This document shows positions 46,337-57,682 of a DNA stretch of 64,000 nt, piece by piece (position 1 is the stretch's first letter; each line of letters opens with the position of its first letter). The notes beneath the pieces are model-generated. The model made no database searches, was not told where the DNA came from, and worked only from the letters and a program-made list of their open reading frames with translations. Source of the stretch: Actinopolyspora xinjiangensis (lineage in GTDB: Bacteria > Actinomycetota > Actinomycetes > Mycobacteriales > Pseudonocardiaceae); NCBI RefSeq assembly GCF_900104475.1, contig NZ_FNJR01000008.1, positions 186,001 through 250,000 of the forward strand, written 5' to 3'. Position numbers and translations under genes: made by a program.

Positions 46337-46420
46337 GGGCGGGTGGCGGAATAGGTAGACGCGCACGGTTCAGGTCCGTGTGTCCGAAAGGACGTGGGGG
46401 TTCAACTCCCCCCTCGCCCA
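46337..46420 (+). tRNA. tRNA-Leu (CAG)
   Basis: 84 nt. Acceptor GGGCGGG/CTCGCCC (one G-T pair) and discriminator A. The anticodon loop TTCAGGT gives CAG. A long variable arm (TGTCCGAAAGGACG) marks a class II tRNA, and the T-arm is GGGGG-TTCAACT-CCCCC. No CCA is encoded. Its last five bases begin the direct repeat that bounds the downstream island. Confidence 0.96.
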
Positions 46421-46582
46421 CCGAGGGGCCGACGGCACAATGGGTGTCGGGTGACCGGCACGATGGTTCGTCGAGCTCGGACGTGTTGATCGGGGAGAGC
46501 TTCGCTGGAGGCGGGGTTCTCCCCGATTTTTTGTGTGTTCTGGTCTTGTAGGGGTTCGTCGGCTCGTTGCCCGTTGTGCTCG
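46416..46582 (+). repeat. Left direct repeat at the 3' end of tRNA-Leu (attL-like)
   Basis: Starts with the tRNA end GCCCA and is about 90% identical over about 165 bp to 55327-55492; both copies start sharply at GCCCACCGAGGGGCCGACG. Contains the terminator at 46489-46532. Confidence 0.85.
46489..46532 (+). terminator. Terminator after tRNA-Leu
   Basis: Stem ATCGGGGAGA / TCTCCCCGAT with a 19-base loop and T5 following. Confidence 0.85.
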
Positions 46583-46699
46583 CTCGGCGGGGCCTCTCGC
46601 GGGCTTTCGCTTATGTGTGCCGGTCCGGCTTTTCGCGCCGTGGTGGAGTGTTTCGAGTGTCACTCCGTGGTGGGGTTCTCGGCCTGTTTCCGGCTGGTG

Positions 46700-47675
<976 letters not shown>

Positions 47676-48269
47676 GGTGTCATGCTGTTGCTTTCGGCGG
47701 GGCGAGCCACGACTTGGTCAGCGAGAAGCATCGCGTGCCCCCGTGCTGGGGCTTCGTCGGCGAGGAAGTCGTGCTGCCGGGTATGCGTGATCGCGAAGAC
47801 ATGACTGTCGTGAAGGTGAGGAAAGATCCAGCGTGAACTCCCCTGAACAGCGGATTGAGTTGTACCGGATCTCACGGTCTTGGTGATGATGGGGTCGACG
47901 ATCTCACGAGTTTTTCTGTCACTGGCAGAACCATGGTCGCCCGATCTCCGGAGTGTTGTGGCGGGGTGTGTGACTTTCCTGATCACCATTCCGAGCCGCA
48001 CGTGTTCGAAGAATGCTCCGATCGGGTGGTAGGTGCGGGAACGATGTTTTCCTGAGGTCTGTGTGAACGGGTGCGCCGAGGTAGCAGCGGGCTGGGGCGG
48101 TTCGTCGTTCCTCGCGCTGGTCAGCATTGACCATCGTCATTGCTCCAAACAGAACATCGTTCGGCAGACACATGGACGAACATGGTCAATAACGTTGACA
48201 CAACTCATCCGTGGAAGCATCCTTATATTCGCTTACCGAGATATGTATATGTGTCCACGGGGAGCTTCG
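47676..48269. other. Island leader region, nothing firmly recognised
   Basis: 594 bp, visibly less GC-rich than the chromosome towards its right end. A minus-strand open frame (47672-48127) lacks a ribosome site or recognisable domain and may be further transposase debris. A TTGACA hexamer at 48195-48200 has no well-spaced -10. The promoter of the radical SAM operon should lie in the last 150 bp. Confidence 0.4.
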
Positions 48270-49691
48270 ATGCAGGTTGTTTTACTCTCGACGTACGAGA
48301 TTGGTCGTCAACCATTCGGGTTAGCCTCCCCGGCGGCGTGGTTGCGGCGTGCCGGTCATTCGGTGCACTGTGTGGACCTTTCGACGCAGAAACTTGAGGG
48401 GAACACGGTTCGTGAGGCGGACCTTATCGCTTGCTACGCACCGATGCACACCGCCACGAGGTTGGCGAACACGGTGATCCAGAAGCTTGTCTCCCTCAAT
48501 CCCGAAGCGCACCTGTGCTTCTACGGCTTGTACGCGCCGATGAACGAGGACTACCTGCGATCGCTCGGTGTACAAACCATTCTGGGGGGTGAATTCGAGC
48601 AGGGATTGTGTGACCTCGTGGAGCGTCTGGCTCGTGATGATGCCGCTGGGCGCGATCCGACATCACAGATCGAACCCCGTGTGTCGCTGGAACGGCAAGA
48701 ATTCGTCACGCCCGACCGGGGTGTCCTGCCCGCCCTGGACCACTACGCGCATTTCATCGACAGTGCTGGTCAAGCACGCACTGTCGGTTACACCGAGGCT
48801 ACGCGTGGTTGTAAGCACACCTGTCGGCATTGTCCCATCGTCCCTGTGTACGGTGGTCGTTTCCGGGTGGTTCAGCAACAGGTCGTGCTCGACGACATCG
48901 ACAATCTGGTCCGAACAGGGGCCGAACACATCACGTTCGGCGATCCTGATTTCCTCAACGCTCCCGGACACGCGCGCAAGCTCGTCGAAGCTTTGCATTC
49001 CCGCCATCCGGACATCACCTACGATGTGACGATCAAAGTGGAGCACCTGGTCAAGCACGCGCAATTGTTGCCCACGTTGGCCGAGACCAACTGTGCCCTG
49101 GTCACCTGTGCTGTGGAATCGTTCGACGAACACGCCCTGGAGGTACTCGACAAGCAGCACTCCCCGCAGGATTTCGAATACGCGCTGGAACAACTTCGTG
49201 CTGCTGGTATCGCACTGAATCCCACGTTCGTGGCTTTTATGCCGTATGTGTCCCTGGAGGGTTATCTCGACTTTCTCCGCACACTGCACCGACTTGATTT
49301 GGTCGGCAACGTGGCTCCTGTCCAGTATGCGATTCGCCTGTTGATCCCCCGGGGTTCGCTTCTGCTGGACCGGCCGGAGACGCAAGCGGTCATCGGCGAG
49401 TTCGACGAGGAGGCGTTGTGCTACCCGTGGACCCATCCCGACCCGCGTATGGACCAATTGCACACCGACGTGTCCGACTATGTTGAACGGGTTCAGAACT
49501 CCGAAGTGAGTCGTGCGGAGATTTTCCGGAACGTGCTGACGCTGGCGCACCGGGCGGCCGGCCTTCCGGCCCCCTCGGCAGCGGAGTTTCCCACCGACGA
49601 GCCGGATCTGGCTCCTCACGTGGACGAGCCGTGGTACTGCTGCGCCGAGCCCACGACCAATCAACTGTTGCAGCTGGAGGTCGGTGTCTGA
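48270..49691 (+). CDS. CCAEP-tail radical SAM protein with N-terminal cobalamin-binding-like domain
   Basis: 473 residues from the ATG with GGGGAG seven bases upstream. The N-terminal 120 residues resemble a B12-binding Rossmann fold (MQVVLLSTYEIGRQPFGLAS). The radical SAM CxxxCxxC cluster is Cys181, Cys185 and Cys188 in RGCKHTCRHC, followed by a TIM-barrel-like core. The C-terminus carries Cys457-Cys458 in CCAEP. I recall an NCBI family called CUAEP/CCAEP-tail radical SAM (seleno)protein, in which the first or second Cys may be selenocysteine. The reaction is unknown. First gene of a four-gene operon, overlapping the next by one base. Confidence 0.88.
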   Translation: MQVVLLSTYEIGRQPFGLASPAAWLRRAGHSVHCVDLSTQKLEGNTVREADLIACYAPMHTATRLANTVIQKLVSLNPEAHLCFYGLYAPMNEDYLRSLGVQTILGGEFEQGLCDLVERLARDDAAGRDPTSQIEPRVSLERQEFVTPDRGVLPALDHYAHFIDSAGQARTVGYTEATRGCKHTCRHCPIVPVYGGRFRVVQQQVVLDDIDNLVRTGAEHITFGDPDFLNAPGHARKLVEALHSRHPDITYDVTIKVEHLVKHAQLLPTLAETNCALVTCAVESFDEHALEVLDKQHSPQDFEYALEQLRAAGIALNPTFVAFMPYVSLEGYLDFLRTLHRLDLVGNVAPVQYAIRLLIPRGSLLLDRPETQAVIGEFDEEALCYPWTHPDPRMDQLHTDVSDYVERVQNSEVSRAEIFRNVLTLAHRAAGLPAPSAAEFPTDEPDLAPHVDEPWYCCAEPTTNQLLQLEVGV

Positions 49692-50938
49692 TGACCGGAA
49701 CAGTGCCGGATGGGATGCGTGAGGCGATCACCGAGAACGGAACACCGGCTTACCTGTACGACTTGGCGGAGCTGCGTCGTCGTGTTCGTGTCCTTCGCAC
49801 GCGGTTGCCCGGTCGCATCGGGCTGTACTATTCCCTCAAAGCCAACCCCGCCGTGGACGTGTGCGCGGTACTGGCCAGCGAAGGAATCGGCGCGGAAGTT
49901 TCCTCGGCGGGAGAATGGGCCGCGGCGCGAGCGGCGGGATTTCGGGACGAGGCCATACTGGCGACCGGTCCATATCACGAGCCCGCCGTGCTCGACGCGG
50001 CCGGAGAGTCGAAGTTTCCGCTCTCGTGCGATTCACCCGGAGAACTGCGGCGCGCGGCCGACGCGACCCGCTCGGCGCCTCTGCTGGCTCGGCTGCGGCC
50101 GACCTTTTCCTCGACCGCTGTGGTTTGCACCGACGAGACCTCTCGATTCGGCATGGACCTGCAGGAACTCACCCACACCATCGAACACGACCCGGAGCTG
50201 GCCAGCCGGATACAGGGTTTCCACGTCTTCGCCGGTTCCCAGGTCTGTGACACCGACGAGGTACTGCGTCAGCTCCGGGAGAGCTTCACCCTGTGCGCCC
50301 AGACGGCCGAACGCACCGGGATCACACCGGCTGTCCTCGACCTCGGTGGTGGCTTTGGTGTGCCCTACGGGCCGGAGGACCCCCAGCTCGATCTCGACGT
50401 GATCGCCGACGAACTCGCCACGCTGGGCGATCGCGCCGCACCGACACACATCGTGATCGAACTGGGCCGCTACATCGTCGCACCCATCGGGTGGTACGCG
50501 GTGACCGTGGTCGGTCATCAGCACCGAGCAGGACGCACAGCACTGATCGTGGACGGAGGTGTGCACCACCGCGCCGACATATGCGGTGTGGACCTCGCTC
50601 GTCGTGGACCGTCTCCCCTCGTCGTCGAGAACGGCACCGACAACCCCCACGGTCTTCCGACTGCTGGACCCGTCGACATCCTCGGATGCCTGTGCCTTCC
50701 CGAGGACGTACTCGCCGAGAACGTCCGGCTCTCGGGCACCGCGCGCGGCACTGTCGTGGCCTTTCCTCAAGCTGGCGCCTACGGGCTCTCCGCGGCTCCC
50801 CAGCGGTTTCTCAGTCACGCCCCACCCGTACAAATCGCTCTCGAGCACGGAAACCACTCGCTGCTGCGTTCCCAGCCCGACGTACCAATCTCCCCTCGGC
50901 AGTCCAGCACGCTCCACGCTCCGCTGACCTCGTCATAG
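49691..50938 (+). CDS. Type III-fold PLP-dependent decarboxylase-like enzyme
   Basis: 415 residues, ornithine/diaminopimelate decarboxylase family. The PLP lysine is Lys50 in YYSLKANP; HVFAGSQVCDTDE, LDLGGGFGVPYG (phosphate-binding Gly loop) and IELGRYIVAPIGWYAV follow in normal order. The C-terminal sheet includes DILGCLCLPEDVLAEN, with the Cys that completes the neighbouring active site in this fold. The substrate is unclear, and the context (radical SAM, permease, DsrE, mer genes) argues against housekeeping lysine synthesis. The ATG overlaps the radical SAM stop (TGATG). Confidence 0.88.
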   Translation: MTGTVPDGMREAITENGTPAYLYDLAELRRRVRVLRTRLPGRIGLYYSLKANPAVDVCAVLASEGIGAEVSSAGEWAAARAAGFRDEAILATGPYHEPAVLDAAGESKFPLSCDSPGELRRAADATRSAPLLARLRPTFSSTAVVCTDETSRFGMDLQELTHTIEHDPELASRIQGFHVFAGSQVCDTDEVLRQLRESFTLCAQTAERTGITPAVLDLGGGFGVPYGPEDPQLDLDVIADELATLGDRAAPTHIVIELGRYIVAPIGWYAVTVVGHQHRAGRTALIVDGGVHHRADICGVDLARRGPSPLVVENGTDNPHGLPTAGPVDILGCLCLPEDVLAENVRLSGTARGTVVAFPQAGAYGLSAAPQRFLSHAPPVQIALEHGNHSLLRSQPDVPISPRQSSTLHAPLTSS

Positions 50939-50948
50939 TGGACGACCC

Positions 50949-51983
50949 ATGGCAACCTGGAACGAGACCCTGTGGTTGTTCAGCGTCCTGTTCGTCGAAC
51001 TGATCGCGCTTTTCCTCGTGGTCACCTTCGTCATGGAGCTGATCCAGCGTCGCTGGTTGCACCCCAGCCGTATTCAACGCTGGCTCGGTGGCCAACGCAT
51101 CACGATCGGCATTGTCAAAGGTGTCGTTCTGGGGGCGGTCACACCGTTCTGCTCGGCCATCGGAGTTCCCTTTCTGCTGAGCTTGCTGCGTGTCGGCGTC
51201 CCCTTCCACACCGCCCTGGCCTTTCTGATTTCCTCCCCACTGGTCGATGCCTTCATTCTCGGCCTGATCGGCGTGCTGTTCGGATGGGAAATCGTACTCG
51301 GTTACACGATCATCGTGGTGACGGTCTGTGCGCTCGCGGCATGGTTGTTGTCGTCACTGGGGATGGAACGGTATGTCAAACCCGGCCTGTCCCAAAGCCG
51401 CGACGCCCTGCCGAACACACTCCCGGCCACTTCCACGGGGCCATCATCACCGCCCAGTGAACGGGACCGAGCCGAGCCACCACCTCCGTGCTCGCCCCCG
51501 GCCGCTGCCGCGTGTTCCGTGGAGGAAGCCGAACACGGCGAACAGGGCGACTGGTACGGATGGCCGCACGAGACCCGAGCTGCCTGGAACACGGCACTGT
51601 CCAGTCTGCGTGACGTGTTCTGGCGCATGCTGATCGGCATCGGCCTCGGGGCGATCATCTACGGTCTTGTGCCCCAACAGGCGATGACCGGGGTGATGCA
51701 GCACCTGCCCACCGCGTTGGCCGTGCCGCTGGCCGCGGTGGCGGGAATACCGCTGTACATGCGTGAAGAAGCCGCATTGCCCATCGGCTACGCGCTGATC
51801 CAGTCAGGGGTCGGCGTCGGATTGGTGTTCGCCATGGTGATCGGTGCAGCAGGAGCCTCGCTGCCCGAACTGTCCATGCTCTCCAGCGTATTTCGCCGCC
51901 CACTGCTGCTCGCATTCGTGGGGTCGGTCTTCGCCGTCGCGATGGTCGGCGGCTGGCTGATCCCCCTGTTCGTGCCCTCGTGA
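50949..51983 (+). CDS. ArsP/DUF318-like permease, probable (organo)metal efflux
   Basis: 344 residues, about eight to ten membrane helices in two halves separated by a hydrophilic Pro/Ser/Glu-rich loop (about 145-205). The motif TPFCSAIGVPFLLSLLRVG with FLISSPLVDAFILG matches the permease family that includes ArsP, an exporter of trivalent organoarsenicals. The Cys in TPFCSAIG aligns with cysteines used by that family. It starts 10 bases after the decarboxylase, so is co-transcribed. I recall an NCBI name 'efflux transporter SaoE' for members in similar operons. Confidence 0.82.
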   Translation: MATWNETLWLFSVLFVELIALFLVVTFVMELIQRRWLHPSRIQRWLGGQRITIGIVKGVVLGAVTPFCSAIGVPFLLSLLRVGVPFHTALAFLISSPLVDAFILGLIGVLFGWEIVLGYTIIVVTVCALAAWLLSSLGMERYVKPGLSQSRDALPNTLPATSTGPSSPPSERDRAEPPPPCSPPAAAACSVEEAEHGEQGDWYGWPHETRAAWNTALSSLRDVFWRMLIGIGLGAIIYGLVPQQAMTGVMQHLPTALAVPLAAVAGIPLYMREEAALPIGYALIQSGVGVGLVFAMVIGAAGASLPELSMLSSVFRRPLLLAFVGSVFAVAMVGGWLIPLFVPS

Positions 51984-52043
51984 CCGGACACGTCACAGAC
52001 ACACGAGGGCGCTCCGGAAAAAGAACCCAGGAAAGGGTGCTCC

Positions 52044-52409
52044 ATGAAGGTTGCGTACGTGTTCAGCACATCGGGACACACAGCAAGCTACAAACTGGGC
52101 AAAATGATTCTGCCCCAGCTGGAAGACCGACGGCACGGCGTGGAGGTCGTCGGCATGATGTTTTTCGATGACAACAACTTCGTACTCAAACATGCCGACC
52201 CGATCGGCGAACGGCTCGCCACGGTGGCCCGGGACCAGAACATACTGCTGATGATGTGCGACCAGTGCGCTTTGGAACGCGGCCTGGCAGATGGACAGCC
52301 CGGCTCGTGCACACCGCTCGGAACGGTCGACGGTGTCAAGGTCGGTTGCTTCCCCGACCTGTACAGCGCTCTCGCCGACAACGTTCCCGACCAGGTCATC
52401 ACGCTCTGA
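52044..52409 (+). CDS. DsrE-like small protein with CxxC
   Basis: 121 residues; MKVAYVFSTSGHTASYKLGKMIL opens a DsrE/DsrF-like alpha/beta fold. Cysteines are Cys72 and Cys75 (MMCDQCALERG), Cys89 and Cys102. DsrE/TusD proteins relay sulfur as persulfide; here thiol or metal relay is equally possible. ATG with GAAAGG upstream, 60 bases after the permease and last in the operon. I recall 'DsrE-related protein SaoD' used for relatives. Confidence 0.8.
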   Translation: MKVAYVFSTSGHTASYKLGKMILPQLEDRRHGVEVVGMMFFDDNNFVLKHADPIGERLATVARDQNILLMMCDQCALERGLADGQPGSCTPLGTVDGVKVGCFPDLYSALADNVPDQVITL

Positions 52410-52543
52410 CGTATTTTCCGGACACGAGCATACTGACGTGTCCACATAGCGGTGTCCGCGAAGCGGTGAACCACGGGGCCGTGGTTCACCGTCGCGCCGT
52501 GGTGGTGACGGCTCATCGCCGCTACCGCAGGGCTCGCGCGTGG

Positions 52544-53191
52544 TCAGCACTGGTGTTCGGGGTGTTCGTCGGTCGGGGGGTGGTGTGCGAGCTGGCGGGC
52601 GAGCGTGTGGGCCTCGGGCACGGGCAGCACCGTGCTCGCGGGGTGTTCGGCCAGCTTGCCCGAGGCGTCCTCGGGGCTGGCGAAGAAGTGCACGTGCTCG
52701 CAGAAGGCGGCCCGCACCGAGGTGCAGTGTTCGGGAGTGACCAGCGACAGCACGGCTGTGGTCGGCTCCAGGTGGGTGATTTCGTCGGGGGTCACGATCA
52801 GCCGTACCGGTGTGGCGGTGGCGGGGCAGCGGGATTCGACCCGGGCGGTGCGACCGAGCATGCTGGGAAAGATCAGGGTGTCCAGGGCACACCAGGTATA
52901 CAACTCGCTCTCGTCGACGGTGAACCGGTGCCCCGTGGCACGCAGGGTGAGACCGCAGCCGATGATCCGCCCGGCCGCGTCGTATTCGGTGTCGGACAGT
53001 GTGGCCATCGCCCGACGAACCTCGGCGTCGGTGCGAGCTGCGGCCGTGGCCAGCTGCGTGACGGTGATCGGTTCACCACGTGACAGCAGCCGCAGCAGCG
53101 GGGGCCAGAGCCAGGCCAGCTCCGGGTGGGTCAGCGACGGGCGCAGTGAGGCACGAATGCGGCGTGTCAGTGCCGTGAGCTCGCTGTTCAT
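52544..53191 (-). CDS. merB: Organomercurial lyase MerB
   Basis: 215 residues. The protonolysis triad is present: Cys101 and Asp104 in YTWCALDTLIFP and Cys164 in AFCEHVHFF, matching Cys96, Asp99 and Cys159 of the well-studied enzyme. The N-terminal winged-helix-like region (LRLLSRGEPITVTQLA) is typical. MerB cleaves the carbon-mercury bond, giving Hg(II) for MerA. It follows merA by 36 bases on the minus strand and converges with the DsrE gene. Confidence 0.93.
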   Translation of the reverse strand: MNSELTALTRRIRASLRPSLTHPELAWLWPPLLRLLSRGEPITVTQLATAAARTDAEVRRAMATLSDTEYDAAGRIIGCGLTLRATGHRFTVDESELYTWCALDTLIFPSMLGRTARVESRCPATATPVRLIVTPDEITHLEPTTAVLSLVTPEHCTSVRAAFCEHVHFFASPEDASGKLAEHPASTVLPVPEAHTLARQLAHHPPTDEHPEHQC

Positions 53192-53227
53192 CGTGTGTGG
53201 TCCTTCCCGAAGGCGCCGGAGACGGGT

Positions 53228-54646
53228 TCAGGCGGCGCAGCAGGAGAGTTGTGTGATGTCGCGGGTGAAGGTCTGCGCGGCGAGTTTGAGGGCTTCGGCC
53301 ATGGTCAGGTAGGGCTGCCAGAGTTCGGCCATGTCGTGGACGGTCATGTGATTGGCCAGGGCGTAGACGGCGGTGGCGATGACGTCGCCGGCCCCGTCGG
53401 CCAGCACGTGCGCGCCCAACAGACGCCCCGTCCCTCGGTCGGCGACGAGTTTGACCAGCCCGCGGGGGTCGCGGTTGACGCGTGCGCGGGGTACGTGTTT
53501 AAGCGGGAGCACGCGGGTTTCGCAGTCGTGGCCGGTCTGCTGGGCTTGGGTTTCGGTGAGCCCGGCCGCGGCGATGCTCGGGCCGGTGAAGGTCACCCGC
53601 GGCAGGTGGTGGTAATTCACCGTGCGTCCGGCGTGGCCGAAGGCGTTGTCGACCACGATCGCGCCGTGGGCACCGGCGACGTAGACGAACCGCGGATGGC
53701 CGGTGACATCCCCGGCGGCCCAGATCCGTGGGTGGGTGGTGCGCAGCTCGTCGTCGACGAGCACGTTCCCCTGGCCATCCAGCCGCACCCCGAGCTGTTC
53801 CAGTCCGAGTCCGTCGGTGGCCGTGCGTCGTCCGGTGGCCACCAGCAGTCGCTCGGCACGTAGCTCGCGGGTGCTTCCGTCGTCGCTTTCGACCGTGGCG
53901 ACCACGTGGTCGTGGCTGTCCTGATGGACGGCTATCACCCGGGAGTGGGAGTGGGTGGTGATGCCCTCGTCGGTGAAGATCCGTGCCAGTTCCTCGGAGA
54001 TCTCGGGTTCCTCGGCCGAGGCCAGCTGTGAGCGGGTCACCACGGTGACCTCGGTGCCCAGCCGGGCGAACAGCTGGGCCTGTTCCAGACCGACGTAGCC
54101 ACCACCGAGGACCAGCATCGAGGACGGCAGCGCGTCGAGTTCCATCGCGCTGGTCGAGGTCAGGTAGTCGATTGCCTCGATCCCCTCGATGGGTGGGGTC
54201 CACGGGTACGAGCCGGTCGCCACGAGGTAGTGCTCGGCGGTGATCCGCCGGGAACCGCCGTCGTGGAGCTCGACGTGCAGCGCGGGCCCGTCGTCGAAGG
54301 AGGCCACCCCGCCGATGAGCTCCCAGCCGTACTCAGCGGCCAAGCCCGTGTACTTCTCGGCCCGCAAGTCGGTGACCAGCTCGTCCTTGCCTGCGATGAG
54401 CTCGCCGAAGGCGACCTGCTCGGCACTGGCCCGCACCCCGGGCAAGTGCGCGGCCGACAGGGCGACGTGGCGCGCCTCGGCCGCGGCCAGCAACGCCTTC
54501 GACGGCACCACGCAGCCGGTGTTGACGCACGTGCCGCCGACGGTGCCGCGTTCGACCATCACCACCGAGCGGTTCTGCCGTCTGGCGGCTATGGCCGCGG
54601 CGAAGGCCGCGCCCCCGGAACCGATGATCGCCAGATCGACAGTCAT
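53228..54646 (-). CDS. merA: Mercuric reductase MerA (without HMA domain)
   Basis: 472 residues. FAD/NAD(P) disulfide oxidoreductase with IIGSGGAAFAAAIAA and the redox pair Cys40-Cys45 in GGTCVNTGCVVPSK, the exact MerA form. A second Rossmann motif LGGGYVGLEQAQLF and the WAAGDVTGHPRFVYVA FAD site follow. The C-terminus ends SCCAA, carrying the vicinal Cys pair (469-470) that binds Hg(II) in the partner's active site. The usual N-terminal heavy-metal domain is missing. It reduces Hg(II) to Hg(0). ATG chosen at the family N-terminus. Confidence 0.95.
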   Translation of the reverse strand: MTVDLAIIGSGGAAFAAAIAARRQNRSVVMVERGTVGGTCVNTGCVVPSKALLAAAEARHVALSAAHLPGVRASAEQVAFGELIAGKDELVTDLRAEKYTGLAAEYGWELIGGVASFDDGPALHVELHDGGSRRITAEHYLVATGSYPWTPPIEGIEAIDYLTSTSAMELDALPSSMLVLGGGYVGLEQAQLFARLGTEVTVVTRSQLASAEEPEISEELARIFTDEGITTHSHSRVIAVHQDSHDHVVATVESDDGSTRELRAERLLVATGRRTATDGLGLEQLGVRLDGQGNVLVDDELRTTHPRIWAAGDVTGHPRFVYVAGAHGAIVVDNAFGHAGRTVNYHHLPRVTFTGPSIAAAGLTETQAQQTGHDCETRVLPLKHVPRARVNRDPRGLVKLVADRGTGRLLGAHVLADGAGDVIATAVYALANHMTVHDMAELWQPYLTMAEALKLAAQTFTRDITQLSCCAA

Positions 54647-54715
54647 GCTCGCTCTTTCCTCTCCGGTGGGACCGGCCCACCCGCGGTCGTGTCCGCCTAC
54701 GCGGAAGCCATCCTC

Positions 54716-54755
54716 ATTATATCCGCATAGGAGAATATGTGATTCGCGGTACAAT
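54716..54755. promoter_or_regulatory. Divergent mer operator/promoters
   Basis: AT-rich 40 bp between merA and the ArsR-type gene. A leftward TATAAT (54721-54716) serves merA, a rightward TACAAT (54750-54755) lies eight bases before the regulator's ATG, and the interrupted repeat CGCATA-N6-TATGTG (54724-54741) lies between them as the likely operator. Confidence 0.7.
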
Positions 54756-54763
54756 GCTGACCT

Positions 54764-55135
54764 ATGACTCGCTCCGTCGATCCCGCCACGCTGCTGCCCG
54801 CTGATGACGAGCGGCTCGGCGTGATGGCCAAGTTCTTTCGCGCCCTGGGCGAGCCGGCCCGGTTGCGGCTGCTGGAGTTCCTGCTCGACGGCGAGCACTC
54901 GGTCAGCGACTGCGTGGAACACGTGGGGCTCTCCCAGGGGCGGGTCTCGACCCACTTGGCTTGCCTGGCCGACTGTGGCTACGTCACCGCCCGCCGCGAG
55001 GGCCGCCGGACCTACTACCGTGCCACCGACCCTCGTGTGGCCGAACTGGTCACCCTGGCTCACACACTGACCACCGAAAACCACGCCGCCCTGGCCACCT
55101 GCGAAAAGATCGACAGCTTCGAAAGCGACAACTAG
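54764..55135 (+). CDS. merR: ArsR-family mercury-responsive repressor (MerR of actinobacterial type)
   Basis: 123 residues. ArsR/SmtB winged helix with LGEPARLRLLEFLLDGEHSV, the recognition helix LSQGRVSTHLACLADCGYV, and the beta wing RREGRRTYYRATDP. Cysteines are Cys50, Cys67, Cys71 and Cys113. In Streptomyces mer operons the regulator belongs to this family rather than to MerR, and position opposite merA supports the role. The ATG lies eight bases after a TACAAT -10 with no Shine-Dalgarno, so the mRNA may be leaderless. Confidence 0.88.
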   Translation: MTRSVDPATLLPADDERLGVMAKFFRALGEPARLRLLEFLLDGEHSVSDCVEHVGLSQGRVSTHLACLADCGYVTARREGRRTYYRATDPRVAELVTLAHTLTTENHAALATCEKIDSFESDN

Positions 55136-55326
55136 ATCCCCGCGGGGCCCAACTCGGCCAACCGCCGTACAAACCCCCGTGCCGAGAGAACTTCACCCGT
55201 TCGAAGCGGTGAAACGCCCTTGAGTTCCCAAGCGACAACACCGGAACCACGGGAAACGATCTCCACTAGCGTGGGAAACCCGTTCCGACTAGCTGCGGCC
55301 TCACTGGTCAGCGGATTTCGTCGGTG

Positions 55327-55492
55327 GCCCACCGAGGGGCCGACGACACGATGGGTGTCGGGTGACCGGCACGATGGTTCGTCGAGCTCGGACGTGATGA
55401 TCGGGGAGAGCTTCGCTGAATGCGGGCTCTCCCCGATTTTTGTGGGTCCTGGTCTTGTAGGGATTCGTCGGTTCGTTGCCAGCTGTGCTCGA
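55327..55492 (+). repeat. Right direct repeat of the tRNA-Leu island (attR-like), with terminator
   Basis: About 90% identical to 46416-46582, from GCCCACCGAGGGG through a terminator hairpin (55400-55441: ATCGGGGAGA / TCTCCCCGAT, T4) to TGTGCTCG. There is no tRNA in front of this copy. Confidence 0.85.
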
Positions 55493-55811: not shown

Positions 55812-56156
55812 TCAGGCCGGGACGGCGGCCATCGCCCGGCACTGCTCCGCACACCGGCGGCAGGAGGCCGCGCACTCGCGGCAGTAGTCCATGTCGTACT
55901 TGTCGCACTCGGCGGCGCAGGCCTCGCAGAGCTCGGCGCAGATCCGGCACATCCGGCTCGCCCACGCCGAGCCCCGCGACAGCAGGGTCACGCAGCTCGC
56001 GCAGACCGTCGCGCAGTCCAGGCACAGCCGGGCGCACTCGGCCATGTCCGCGTTGGTGACGCAGCAGTTGTAGTTGCAGGTCTCGCAGGCCTGCTGGCAC
56101 TCCGCGCACGCGTCCAGGCAGGCCCGGTTGCGCTGCTGCACCATGGTCGTGGCCAT
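55812..56156 (-). CDS. Four-helix-bundle copper-storage-like protein (DUF326/Csp)
   Basis: 114 residues, of which 22 are Cys, arranged every three to four residues along four predicted helices (RACLDACAECQQACETC, AECARLCLDCATVCASC, RMCRICAELCEACAAEC, YCRECAASCRRCAEQC). This matches the Csp/DUF326 cytosolic copper-storage fold, in which inward-facing thiolates bind many Cu(I) ions. No signal peptide is evident. ATG with GAGGAGG upstream. It lies just outside the mercury island beside a disulfide oxidoreductase. Confidence 0.88.
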   Translation of the reverse strand: MATTMVQQRNRACLDACAECQQACETCNYNCCVTNADMAECARLCLDCATVCASCVTLLSRGSAWASRMCRICAELCEACAAECDKYDMDYCRECAASCRRCAEQCRAMAAVPA

Positions 56157-56305: not shown

Positions 56306-57682
56306 TCAGTCGAGGAGCTCGTCGAGGGCGACTTCGATGGCGCGGTGGAAGGTGGGGTAGGCGAAGATCATCCGGCGTAGCTGGGCGAGGTGCACCTGGT
56401 TGTGGACGGCGACGGTGAACGCGCCGAGGATCTCGCCGCCCAGCGGTGCGACCACGGTGGCGCCGAGCAGGATGTCGCGTTCGGTGTCGGCCACCAGTTT
56501 GATCAGCCCCTCGTTGCCGGCCTTGTGGATCCAGCCCCGGGCGGAGGAGGGAATTTCGGTGACCGCCGTGCGCACCGGGAAGCCCTGTCGACGGGCCCGG
56601 GCCTCGGTGAGCCCGACGGAGGCCGCCTCGGGATCGGTGAACGCCACGGCCGGCATGGCCCGGTAGTCCGCCGTCAGCTCGCCCCTGCCGAGTATGTCCT
56701 CGGCGGCGATGCGCGCCTGGTACACCGAGGTGTGGGTGAAGGCGCCGTGACCGGTGACGTCGCCGACGGCCCACACCCCCTCGGCGGCGCGCATCCGCCC
56801 GTCCACCTCGATGGTGTTCGCGGACTCGTCGAGCCCGAGCGAGCTCACCCCCAGCGCGGCGAGGTCCGTGTGGCGCCCCGTGGCGACGAGCAGCTGTTCG
56901 GCGGAGGGGCTCTGCCCGGAGTCGAGTTCCACGGTGAACCGGCCGTCCTCGTGCCGCACGCGCCGCGCGGAGGTGTCGGTGTGCACGGTGATCCCCTCGG
57001 CGGTGAACACCTCGGTGATGGTCTCGGAGGCTTCGGGCTCGCCGCCCGGCAGCACTCGCGGCGCGGCCTCGACCACGGTGGTGTCCACCCCGAAGCGCGC
57101 GAACACCTGGGCGAACTCCGCCCCCACGGGGCCGGCGCCGAGCACCACCACCGACTCGGGCAGCGTGCGGGCCCGCACCGCCTCCCGGTTGGTCCAGAAC
57201 GGGGTGTCCCGGAGCCCCTCGACCGGCGGGACGGCGGGGTCGGTGCCGGGGTTGAGCACGATCGCCCGGCGGGGGCGGAAGACCCGCTCCCCCTCCGCCG
57301 TGTCGACGGTGACCTCACCGGGACCGGTCAGTCGGCCGAACCCCCGCACGAACCGCCCTCCGGTGTCCTCGAACCGCCGCACGGCGACCCGGTCGTCCCA
57401 GTCGGTGGTGGCCTCGTCGCGGATGCGGTCGGCGACCGGGGTCCAGTCCGGTCGCACCGAGGCCGTCCCGGCCAGCAGCGGAACCCGCCCGGCCTCGGCG
57501 AGCGCACCGGCCCCGCGGACCATCATCTTGGTGGGGACGCAGGCGAAGTACGGGCATTCGCCCCCGACCAGGCGATTGTCCACCCCGACCACGCTCAACC
57601 CCGCCGTGGCCAGCCGTCCGGCGACGTCCTCGCCGCCCGGCCCCATGCCGACCACCACGGCATCGACCTCGTCCTCCGCCAT
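56306..57682 (-). CDS. FAD/NAD(P)-dependent disulfide oxidoreductase (MerA/Lpd-like)
   Basis: 458 residues. VVVGMGPGGEDVAGRLATAG for FAD, the redox pair Cys43-Cys48 in GGECPYFACVPTK, a second Rossmann VVLGAGPVGAEFAQVFARFG (given as two parts, VVLGAGPVGAE and FAQVFARFG), and WAVGDVTGHGAFTH. The CPYFAC spacing is C-x4-C, but the intervening residues differ from Lpd and true MerA, and there is no C-terminal CC. The end FAYPTFHRAIEVALDELL keeps a dimer-interface helix. Substrate unknown; a metal- or thiol-reductase is possible. Confidence 0.82.
   Translation of the reverse strand: MAEDEVDAVVVGMGPGGEDVAGRLATAGLSVVGVDNRLVGGECPYFACVPTKMMVRGAGALAEAGRVPLLAGTASVRPDWTPVADRIRDEATTDWDDRVAVRRFEDTGGRFVRGFGRLTGPGEVTVDTAEGERVFRPRRAIVLNPGTDPAVPPVEGLRDTPFWTNREAVRARTLPESVVVLGAGPVGAEFAQVFARFGVDTTVVEAAPRVLPGGEPEASETITEVFTAEGITVHTDTSARRVRHEDGRFTVELDSGQSPSAEQLLVATGRHTDLAALGVSSLGLDESANTIEVDGRMRAAEGVWAVGDVTGHGAFTHTSVYQARIAAEDILGRGELTADYRAMPAVAFTDPEAASVGLTEARARRQGFPVRTAVTEIPSSARGWIHKAGNEGLIKLVADTERDILLGATVVAPLGGEILGAFTVAVHNQVHLAQLRRMIFAYPTFHRAIEVALDELLD

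Follow-up and report, generated by a model that had tools for sequence, protein, structure and literature searches.

A candidate operon for metal(loid) aminopropylation and export next to merBA in Actinopolyspora xinjiangensis

Which reaction might be shared by a radical S-adenosylmethionine (SAM) enzyme, a pyridoxal phosphate (PLP) decarboxylase, a permease and a small thiol protein that are encoded together beside the mercury genes merB and merA? The question is raised by a stretch of 64,000 nucleotides from Actinopolyspora xinjiangensis (assembly GCF_900104475.1, contig NZ_FNJR01000008.1, positions 186,001 to 250,000 of the forward strand), which is called the window throughout. A first-pass annotation had described four closely spaced plus-strand genes at 48270-52409, and the coordinates confirm both the genes and their spacing. 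The stop codon of the radical SAM (rSAM) gene and the start codon of the PLP gene overlap by one base, and gaps of 10 and 60 bases separate the PLP gene from the permease gene and the permease gene from the DsrE gene, respectively. The motifs that had been named, the CCAEP tail, TPFCSAIG and CxxC (CDQC), were all present. The four genes are the following.

48270..49691, + strand: rSAM gene with a CCAEP tail, ArsL related (NF040546 and NF040542 scores, conserved cysteine map)
49691..50938, + strand: PLP decarboxylase gene, type III (alanine-racemase fold), BtrK-like (PDB and NCBIfam comparison)
50949..51983, + strand: ArsP_1-family permease gene with the TPFCSAIG motif (PF03773)
52044..52409, + strand: gene for a small thiol protein of the SaoD/DsrE family, with CDQC (NF040913)

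We consider the chances evenly balanced that these four genes form a metal(loid) aminopropylation-and-export operon, and we infer every chemical step, the element, repressor binding and the direction of transport from homology. The metal(loid) would be bound by the cysteine pair in the rSAM tail, and rSAM would transfer the 3-amino-3-carboxypropyl (ACP) group of SAM to the thiol-bound metal(loid). The PLP enzyme, acting like BtrK and MccE, would strip the carboxylate to give a 3-aminopropyl-metal(loid), the ArsP-type permease would export this product, and the DsrE protein would be a thiol relay handing over metal or product. The first-pass annotation had proposed one module around a metal-carbon bond; bond making, thiol relay and export survive from that proposal in a more specific form, whereas MerB and MerA as downstream steps find no support in the gene order. 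Bond making is favoured over bond breaking because the closest characterised relative of rSAM is ArsL, and an ArsL-type ACP product would therefore give the decarboxylase a role with precedent (BtrK, MccE).

By sequence comparison, rSAM is a true member of the CUAEP/CCAEP family, with ArsL as its nearest characterised relative. It scored 621.9 bits against the CUAEP/CCAEP model NF040546 (cut-off, 500), and its tail reads WYCCAEP, which fits the C(C/U)AEP criterion. The score against the ArsL model NF040542 was 291 bits and that of the next family 55.6 bits. The two ArsL-family proteins that were scanned scored 696 and 653 bits with their own model and had CUAEP as the second family (366 and 336 bits). 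In BLASTP, 129 of 414 columns were identical between rSAM and an ArsL-family protein of Alicyclobacillus. The cluster motif CX3CX2C corresponds to C181, C185 and C188 and the tail pair to C457-C458. We aligned 26 CUAEP rows (27 loci without the two truncated at contig ends, with Thermomicrobium added) with 4 ArsL rows and called a column conserved when it was the same in ≥95% of the CUAEP rows with a residue (20 or more of the 26) and free of gaps in ArsL. By this definition, 48 of 81 conserved columns were identical in all four ArsL rows, those of the cluster cysteines and of the tail cysteine pair included. In a midpoint-rooted tree the four ArsL rows formed one side of a fully supported branch; the Thermomicrobium row stood next to them with support of 91/78, a placement that is not firm.

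ArsL, expressed in Escherichia coli, makes hydroxyarsinothricin from arsenite, As(III), and the same paper predicts that SAM donates its ACP group in this reaction (PMC8552651); a 2025 review credits ACP radical transfer to later work on ArsL (PMC12159101). B12-dependent methylation was rejected, since the B12-binding domain that the first-pass annotation had assumed in rSAM reached 20.3 bits, under the Pfam gathering score of 32.1. A sequence search of the PDB with rSAM gave one weak radical SAM match (E = 0.0015). The tails of the 27 CUAEP loci (L027-L053) comprised 15 Cys-selenocysteine (Sec) tails with an in-frame TGA, 10 Cys-Cys tails including that of the window, and 2 that were cut off; with the window's own tail set aside, 15 of 24 readable tails were thus Cys-Sec. 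In Thermomicrobium roseum, where the rSAM gene has a PLP aminotransferase and a major facilitator superfamily (MFS) transporter as neighbours, the annotated plasmid-borne CUAEP protein (NC_011961.1, L059:7330-7390) ends in WFC. Its Sec codon was probably read as a stop, because the DNA continues with TGA-gcg-gag-ccg (Sec-Ala-Glu-Pro).

The PLP enzyme carries the domains PF02784 and PF00278, and its best PDB sequences were those of BtrK (2j66 and 7ru7; 179 bits), followed by diaminopimelate-type (96 bits) and lysine/ornithine-type (80 bits) enzymes and ornithine decarboxylase (7odc; 53 bits). The motifs SLKAN, GGGFGVPY, VDGGxHHxA, GxLCxPED and GAYGLSxxP are common to the enzyme and BtrK, and the Schiff-base lysine is expected in SLKAN (residues 48 to 52). 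BtrK decarboxylates glutamate bound to the carrier protein BtrI, a glutamyl thioester, and in microcin C synthesis MccE converts an ACP group to aminopropyl; a published tree places both in one clade, together with diaminopimelate and D-ornithine decarboxylases (PMC7857480). Our placing of the window's enzyme in the BtrK/MccE type is based on the PDB comparison with BtrK, MccE being known by description and not by sequence. A decarboxylase of this type would be a fitting partner because an ArsL-like product is expected to be a glutamate-like amino acid. Relatives at E ≤ 1e-45 were present in 19 of 346 phylum-sample genomes, the window's own included, and the other 18 had 33-37% identity. Against the diaminopimelate decarboxylase model TIGR01048 the enzyme scored 156.4 bits, under the cut-off of 297.9. 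Housekeeping lysine synthesis was rejected because the lysA of the genome lies elsewhere (468.3 bits); a housekeeping role was one of the findings that the first-pass annotation had named as speaking against its proposal.

The two enzymes might also act in the reversed order, with the PLP enzyme making decarboxy-SAM and rSAM moving the aminopropyl group straight onto the metal(loid). In microcin C such an order via decarboxy-SAM is considered possible (PMC10491745). For the window's operon we regard it as very unlikely, given that SAM itself is the reported substrate of ArsL (PMC8552651, PMC12159101) and that the amino-acid-ligase-like neighbour in other CUAEP genomes, treated below, fits an ACP amino acid better.

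The permease passed the ArsP_1 model PF03773 (130.4 bits; gathering score, 32.3) and has its TPFCSAIG motif at residue 65. ArsP permeases export organoarsenicals. The permease missed the cut-off of SO_0444 (NF033936; 83.8 versus 300 bits) and that of SaoE (NF040736; 57.6 versus 325 bits). The DsrE protein passed the SaoD/DsrE family model NF040913 (198.9 bits; cut-off, 152), missed SaoD proper (NF040732; 117.2 versus 169 bits) and had no match in a sequence search of the PDB. Sao-type names, which the first-pass annotation had mentioned for similar genes, were therefore apt for rSAM (CUAEP) and for the DsrE family and inapt for the permease (SaoE) and for MerB (SaoL; 22.9 bits, cut-off 140), the latter being an ordinary MerB. 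DsrE homologues with 72-79% identity adjoin CUAEP genes in three other genomes (L037, L039 and L040), and rSAM-DsrE adjacency was observed at 3 of the 26 other CUAEP loci. Of 396 genomes, 18 had an NF040913 DsrE protein, and CUAEP was present as well in 9 of these, versus 1.1 expected (Fisher P = 8e-8, kinship ignored).

The operon shares a 7.3-kb block with merBA and arsR, in which we also located two candidate operators.

48038..55330, no strand: 7.3-kb block (operon, merBA and arsR) common with the sister species (blastn)
52544..53191, − strand: merB, organomercurial lyase, convergent neighbour (NF033555, 261.5 bits)
53228..54646, − strand: merA, mercury(II) reductase, convergent neighbour (TIGR02053, 568.4 bits)
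54764..55135, + strand: ArsR/SmtB-family regulator of the actinobacterial mer type (NF033788, 88.3 bits)
48225..48244, + strand: candidate operator for the mer ArsR, before the rSAM gene (motif scans)
54719..54738, − strand: candidate ArsR operator between merA and arsR (motif scans)

The first-pass annotation had the operon running into merB and merA. Both mer genes are on the minus strand and convergent with the operon, and read-through of the operon into merBA is ruled out by strand; arsR is transcribed divergently from merA. MerB exceeded the cut-off of 200 bits of the ordinary MerB model. The C-terminal Cys pair of MerA has a role in Hg delivery, and the window's MerA ends in such a pair (SCCAA). 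A family scan that covered the seven genes of the block, and not the remainder of the window or genome, found none specific to arsenic and no selenoprotein among their products.

In blastn, 48038-55330 formed the sole alignment between the window and a 20-kb stretch of the sister species (93.75% over 7,317 columns); the flanks of the block in the sister species had no match to the window, and all four operon frames were intact there. In the window, tRNA-Leu (CAG; 46337-46422) adjoins the block, which is bracketed by stretches of about 167 bp (46416-46582 and 55327-55491) that are 91.6% identical. The block looks like an acquired island because it adjoins tRNA-Leu between two near-identical stretches. 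A tRNA was looked for in the 20-kb stretch of the sister species and none was found. A transposase-like frame, judged by eye, follows tRNA-Leu within 46337-47296, and the stretch duplicated across the block resembles an insertion hot spot. Relatives were searched for in viral contigs and phages and none was confirmed, and at the megablast level no plasmid had more than merA of the block. The rSAM family was present in 2 of 10 genus genomes (the window's own included) and in 1 of 394 genomes of the class sample, which was the window's own. In the phylum sample of 396 genomes, 24 had a member at E ≤ 1e-60, and 20 of these passed the cut-off.

The GC content of the four operon genes was 0.60-0.66 versus 0.687 for the window, and at third codon positions (GC3) it was 0.71-0.78 in the operon genes versus 0.85-0.88 in merB, merA and arsR. 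Synonymous divergence (dS) between the two species was 0.067-0.093 for the operon versus 0.26-0.58 for merB, merA and arsR, and the histories of the two gene groups are therefore not wholly common. Ratios of nonsynonymous to synonymous divergence (dN/dS) were 0.10 for rSAM, 0.29 for the PLP enzyme, 0.21 for the permease and 0.13 for DsrE; all four operon genes evolve under purifying selection. We consider it highly improbable that there is no pathway and that a mobile island has brought the PLP enzyme and permease together by chance. The scarcity of the four-gene set, found in 2 of 10 genus species counting the window's own and at none of the 26 other CUAEP loci, would fit such an origin; the one-base overlap and 10-base gap, the intact frames and purifying selection for all four genes in two species, and a fitting role for each protein argue against it.

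Homologues of the window's ArsR were found at merA in all seven plasmid regions taken from 21 ArsR-homologue records (adjacent in six, one gene off in one). The cysteines of ArsR in HL(A/S)CLxDCGY and one near the C terminus were kept in 9 of 9 rows, and these conserved cysteines resemble the CmtR thiol site. In Streptomyces lividans, ArsR represses mer in the absence of Hg (PMC3466566). With a hand-picked matrix (12 sites chosen by eye from seven mer promoters), the merA-arsR site ranked first in the window (18.4), and the operon site at 48225-48244, whose end is 25 bp upstream of the rSAM start, scored 12.98. This value was reached by 6 of 1,000 shuffles of the upstream region and by one match in 400 kb of other loci. 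One training site scored 11.9 when held out, and a window site at 47781, outside the conserved block, scored 13.13, slightly above the operon site. A control scan in tiles did not register site 47781, which lies across the border of two tiles.

The hand-picked matrix was not fully independent, the operon site having earlier been used to search the same mer promoters, and for this reason de novo motifs were derived from the seven mer promoters of other actinobacteria alone, with the window unused, at widths of 16, 18, 20 and 22. The operon site was upheld. At widths 16, 18 and 20 the best window position was the merA-arsR site and the second the operon site (20.5 and 18.1, respectively, at width 18, with the third position at 11.5); width 22 put the operon site first in the window. 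Site 47781 was not among the top eight window sites listed for the de novo motifs. The operon site is identical in the sister species. Direct promoter comparison was weak, the best 20-mer match (15/20) being reached by 2 of 60 shuffles, and the two operator-like sites match at 14/20, which 21 of 60 shuffles reached. A pattern built from the two sites themselves was set aside, its two exact matches carrying no weight. The motif scans suggest that the operon and merA are under a common regulator, and release of the mercury-responsive ArsR repressor probably switches on the operon as it does merA.

Because the operon is probably derepressed by the mer ArsR, the likeliest substrate is Hg(II) or As(III), with mercury slightly favoured. 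Mercury is a serious candidate beside arsenic since the two best de novo window sites precede merA and the operon. In its favour are the operator-like site, the two-thiol tail and the presence of merBA in the block of both species; the ArsL kinship and the ArsP family name favour arsenic. The mercury version in full, in which rSAM with its MerA-like Cys-Cys tail would alkylate Hg(II) with ACP and decarboxylated aminopropyl-mercury would be exported under the mer repressor, is a tentative proposal that we hold to be doubtful. The neighbouring MerB could cleave such carbon-mercury bonds, and the route could serve detoxification or yield a toxic product. To our knowledge, HgcAB methylation is the existing biological route to organomercury; if the mercury version is true, the operon would be a second one beside HgcAB and would bear on the origin of natural organomercury. 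An operon for arsenic only, with the same chemistry, a 3-aminopropyl-arsenical as product and the mercury neighbours as a side effect of island assembly, seems unlikely. Such a restriction is in line with the action of ArsL on arsenic (PMC8552651) and with the differences in dS and GC3, and so in history, between operon and mer genes. Export of organoarsenicals by ArsP fits it as well. The lack of an arsenic-specific gene among the seven block genes, the mer-type operator-like site and a tail with two cysteines instead of the three of ArsL speak against it.

We compared the locus with stretches of the 26 other CUAEP loci (3.9-20 kb each, some ending at contig ends or at rSAM). An ATP-grasp gene was on the same strand within 200 bp at 18 of the 27 CUAEP loci and within 5 kb at 2, and none was in the stretch at 7, the window's locus among them. 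Both ATP-grasp proteins that were scanned had an L-amino-acid-ligase C-terminal domain above the gathering score, and this ligase is expected to be another enzyme acting on an amino acid. Four of the five searched genomes without an adjacent ligase carry the ligase elsewhere. At E ≤ 1e-60, the ligase was present in 22 of 24 CUAEP genomes versus 10 of 372 others (Fisher P = 2e-26, kinship ignored). With the window's genome left out, 22 of 23 CUAEP genomes in the phylum sample carried it. It was not found in genome G021 or in the window's genome, in which the best match had 29% identity. The ligase version of the system predicts peptides bearing a metal(loid) amino acid in other bacteria, of which many would use a selenocysteine enzyme. 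The view that the ligase is a dedicated CUAEP partner is weakened by the 10 of 372 CUAEP-less genomes that carry it. A conserved pair of ligase-like and NifU-like genes was seen in genomes without a CUAEP match (L103, L104, L113, L118, L121 and L124-L127).

Near ArsL-family genes, ATP-grasp genes were present in three of four plasmid regions and were weakly similar to the CUAEP ligases. The ArsL-family (RCCLKC) plasmid clusters L060, L061 and L063, in Priestia, Alicyclobacillus and Pantoea, have an ATP-grasp gene together with a gene for a GTP-binding protein, and the single such protein scanned had a CobW domain. These ATP-grasp-bearing clusters perhaps make peptide derivatives of arsinothricin.

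Several of our results weigh against the aminopropylation pathway. rSAM misses the ArsL cut-off (291 versus 450 bits) and lacks the RCCLKC of ArsL, the third Cys being replaced by Pro461; the substrate or even the transferred group may therefore differ. The best NCBIfam model for the PLP enzyme was TIGR03099 (exosortase A-associated), with 241.6 bits under a cut-off of 478.45, and BtrK as the best solved relative may mirror the choice of solved structures. The 12.98 of the operon site is under the scores of all 12 training sites of the hand-picked matrix (17.9-32.0). The window's PLP enzyme and permease had no match at E 1e-3 in the 26 other CUAEP stretches, several of which are short, and the pathway therefore rests on one island in two species. 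Co-conservation of the four genes, on which the first-pass annotation had staked its proposal, thus held in one of nine other genus species and did not extend to the PLP enzyme and permease at other CUAEP loci. Ligase loci without CUAEP, ten in number, had a NifU-like neighbour in all nine cases examined, and the ligase is not dedicated to the CUAEP product, because it occurs without CUAEP and with this neighbour.

The missed ArsL cut-off would also fit the view that rSAM carries out another kind of metal chemistry (transfer of a 5'-deoxyadenosyl or methyl group, or metal-carbon cleavage) and that the decarboxylase acts on some other substrate. Adenosylation of arsenic by a radical SAM enzyme has a precedent in oxo-arsenosugar synthesis (PMC12159101), and P58-M59-H60-T61 of CUAEP corresponds to PLFD in the four ArsL rows. 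We nevertheless judge such chemistry decidedly unlikely, since rSAM is similar to ArsL over nearly its full length, with nothing comparable to other families, and a lyase is already supplied by merB of the same block.

Among known systems, the arsQML arsinothricin cluster (PMC8552651) resembles the operon in its radical SAM homologue (414 columns, CX3CX2C and a C-terminal Cys pair) and in being a small operon with an export permease and a metal-responsive regulator nearby. It differs in having an RCCLKC tail where CCAEP stands here, the window's protein missing the ArsL cut-off, and in having ArsM and ArsQ, whereas the window's locus has no ArsM, an ArsP-type permease, an added decarboxylase and a mer neighbourhood. 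In microcin C biosynthesis, MccD and MccE likewise use ACP from SAM and a PLP decarboxylase of the alanine-racemase fold to give aminopropyl, but MccD is of the SAM-dependent methyltransferase type and not a radical SAM enzyme, and the acceptor is a phosphate (PMC7857480, PMC10491745). BtrK, the L-glutamyl-carrier decarboxylase of butirosin synthesis, is likened to the PLP enzyme by the best PDB match and common motifs, but the window's operon is without an acyl-carrier gene. CUAEP loci with ligase and NifU-like genes, in genomes of the phylum and two metagenome-assembled genomes of Proteobacteria, share the rSAM family and, at 3 of 26, an adjacent DsrE; they differ in having the ligase in place of the decarboxylase and Sec in 15 of 24 tails.

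The Sec-assisted organometallic (SAO) system is described in a 2026 review as an operon with six selenoprotein genes (PMC13188914). Its NCBIfam members SaoD (DsrE-related), SaoE (efflux transporter) and SaoL (MerB-like lyase) have counterparts in the block, which has a DsrE protein of a sister model, a permease and MerB, but the SaoD, SaoE and SaoL cut-offs were missed and the seven block genes include no selenoprotein. Membership of the block in the SAO system was rejected on the missed cut-offs. The family names CUAEP, ArsL and SaoD/DsrE already exist in NCBIfam. A literature search found no paper with CUAEP, and of 56 papers matching CCAEP, RCCLKC, NF040546, SaoD or CUAEP the ten listed had nothing but SAOD in other senses of the term; few subscription journals were covered, and a description of the CUAEP/CCAEP system elsewhere is possible. 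The pathway proposed here would turn the names CUAEP/CCAEP radical SAM and SaoD/DsrE into one testable reaction scheme, in which aminopropyl organometal(loid)s are predicted as natural products.

Immediately beyond the conserved block, the window encodes a second FAD/NAD reductase (56309-57682, − strand), which scored 295.8 bits against MerA (cut-off, 454). Beside it lies a small cysteine-rich frame (55812-56123, − strand) without a family match.

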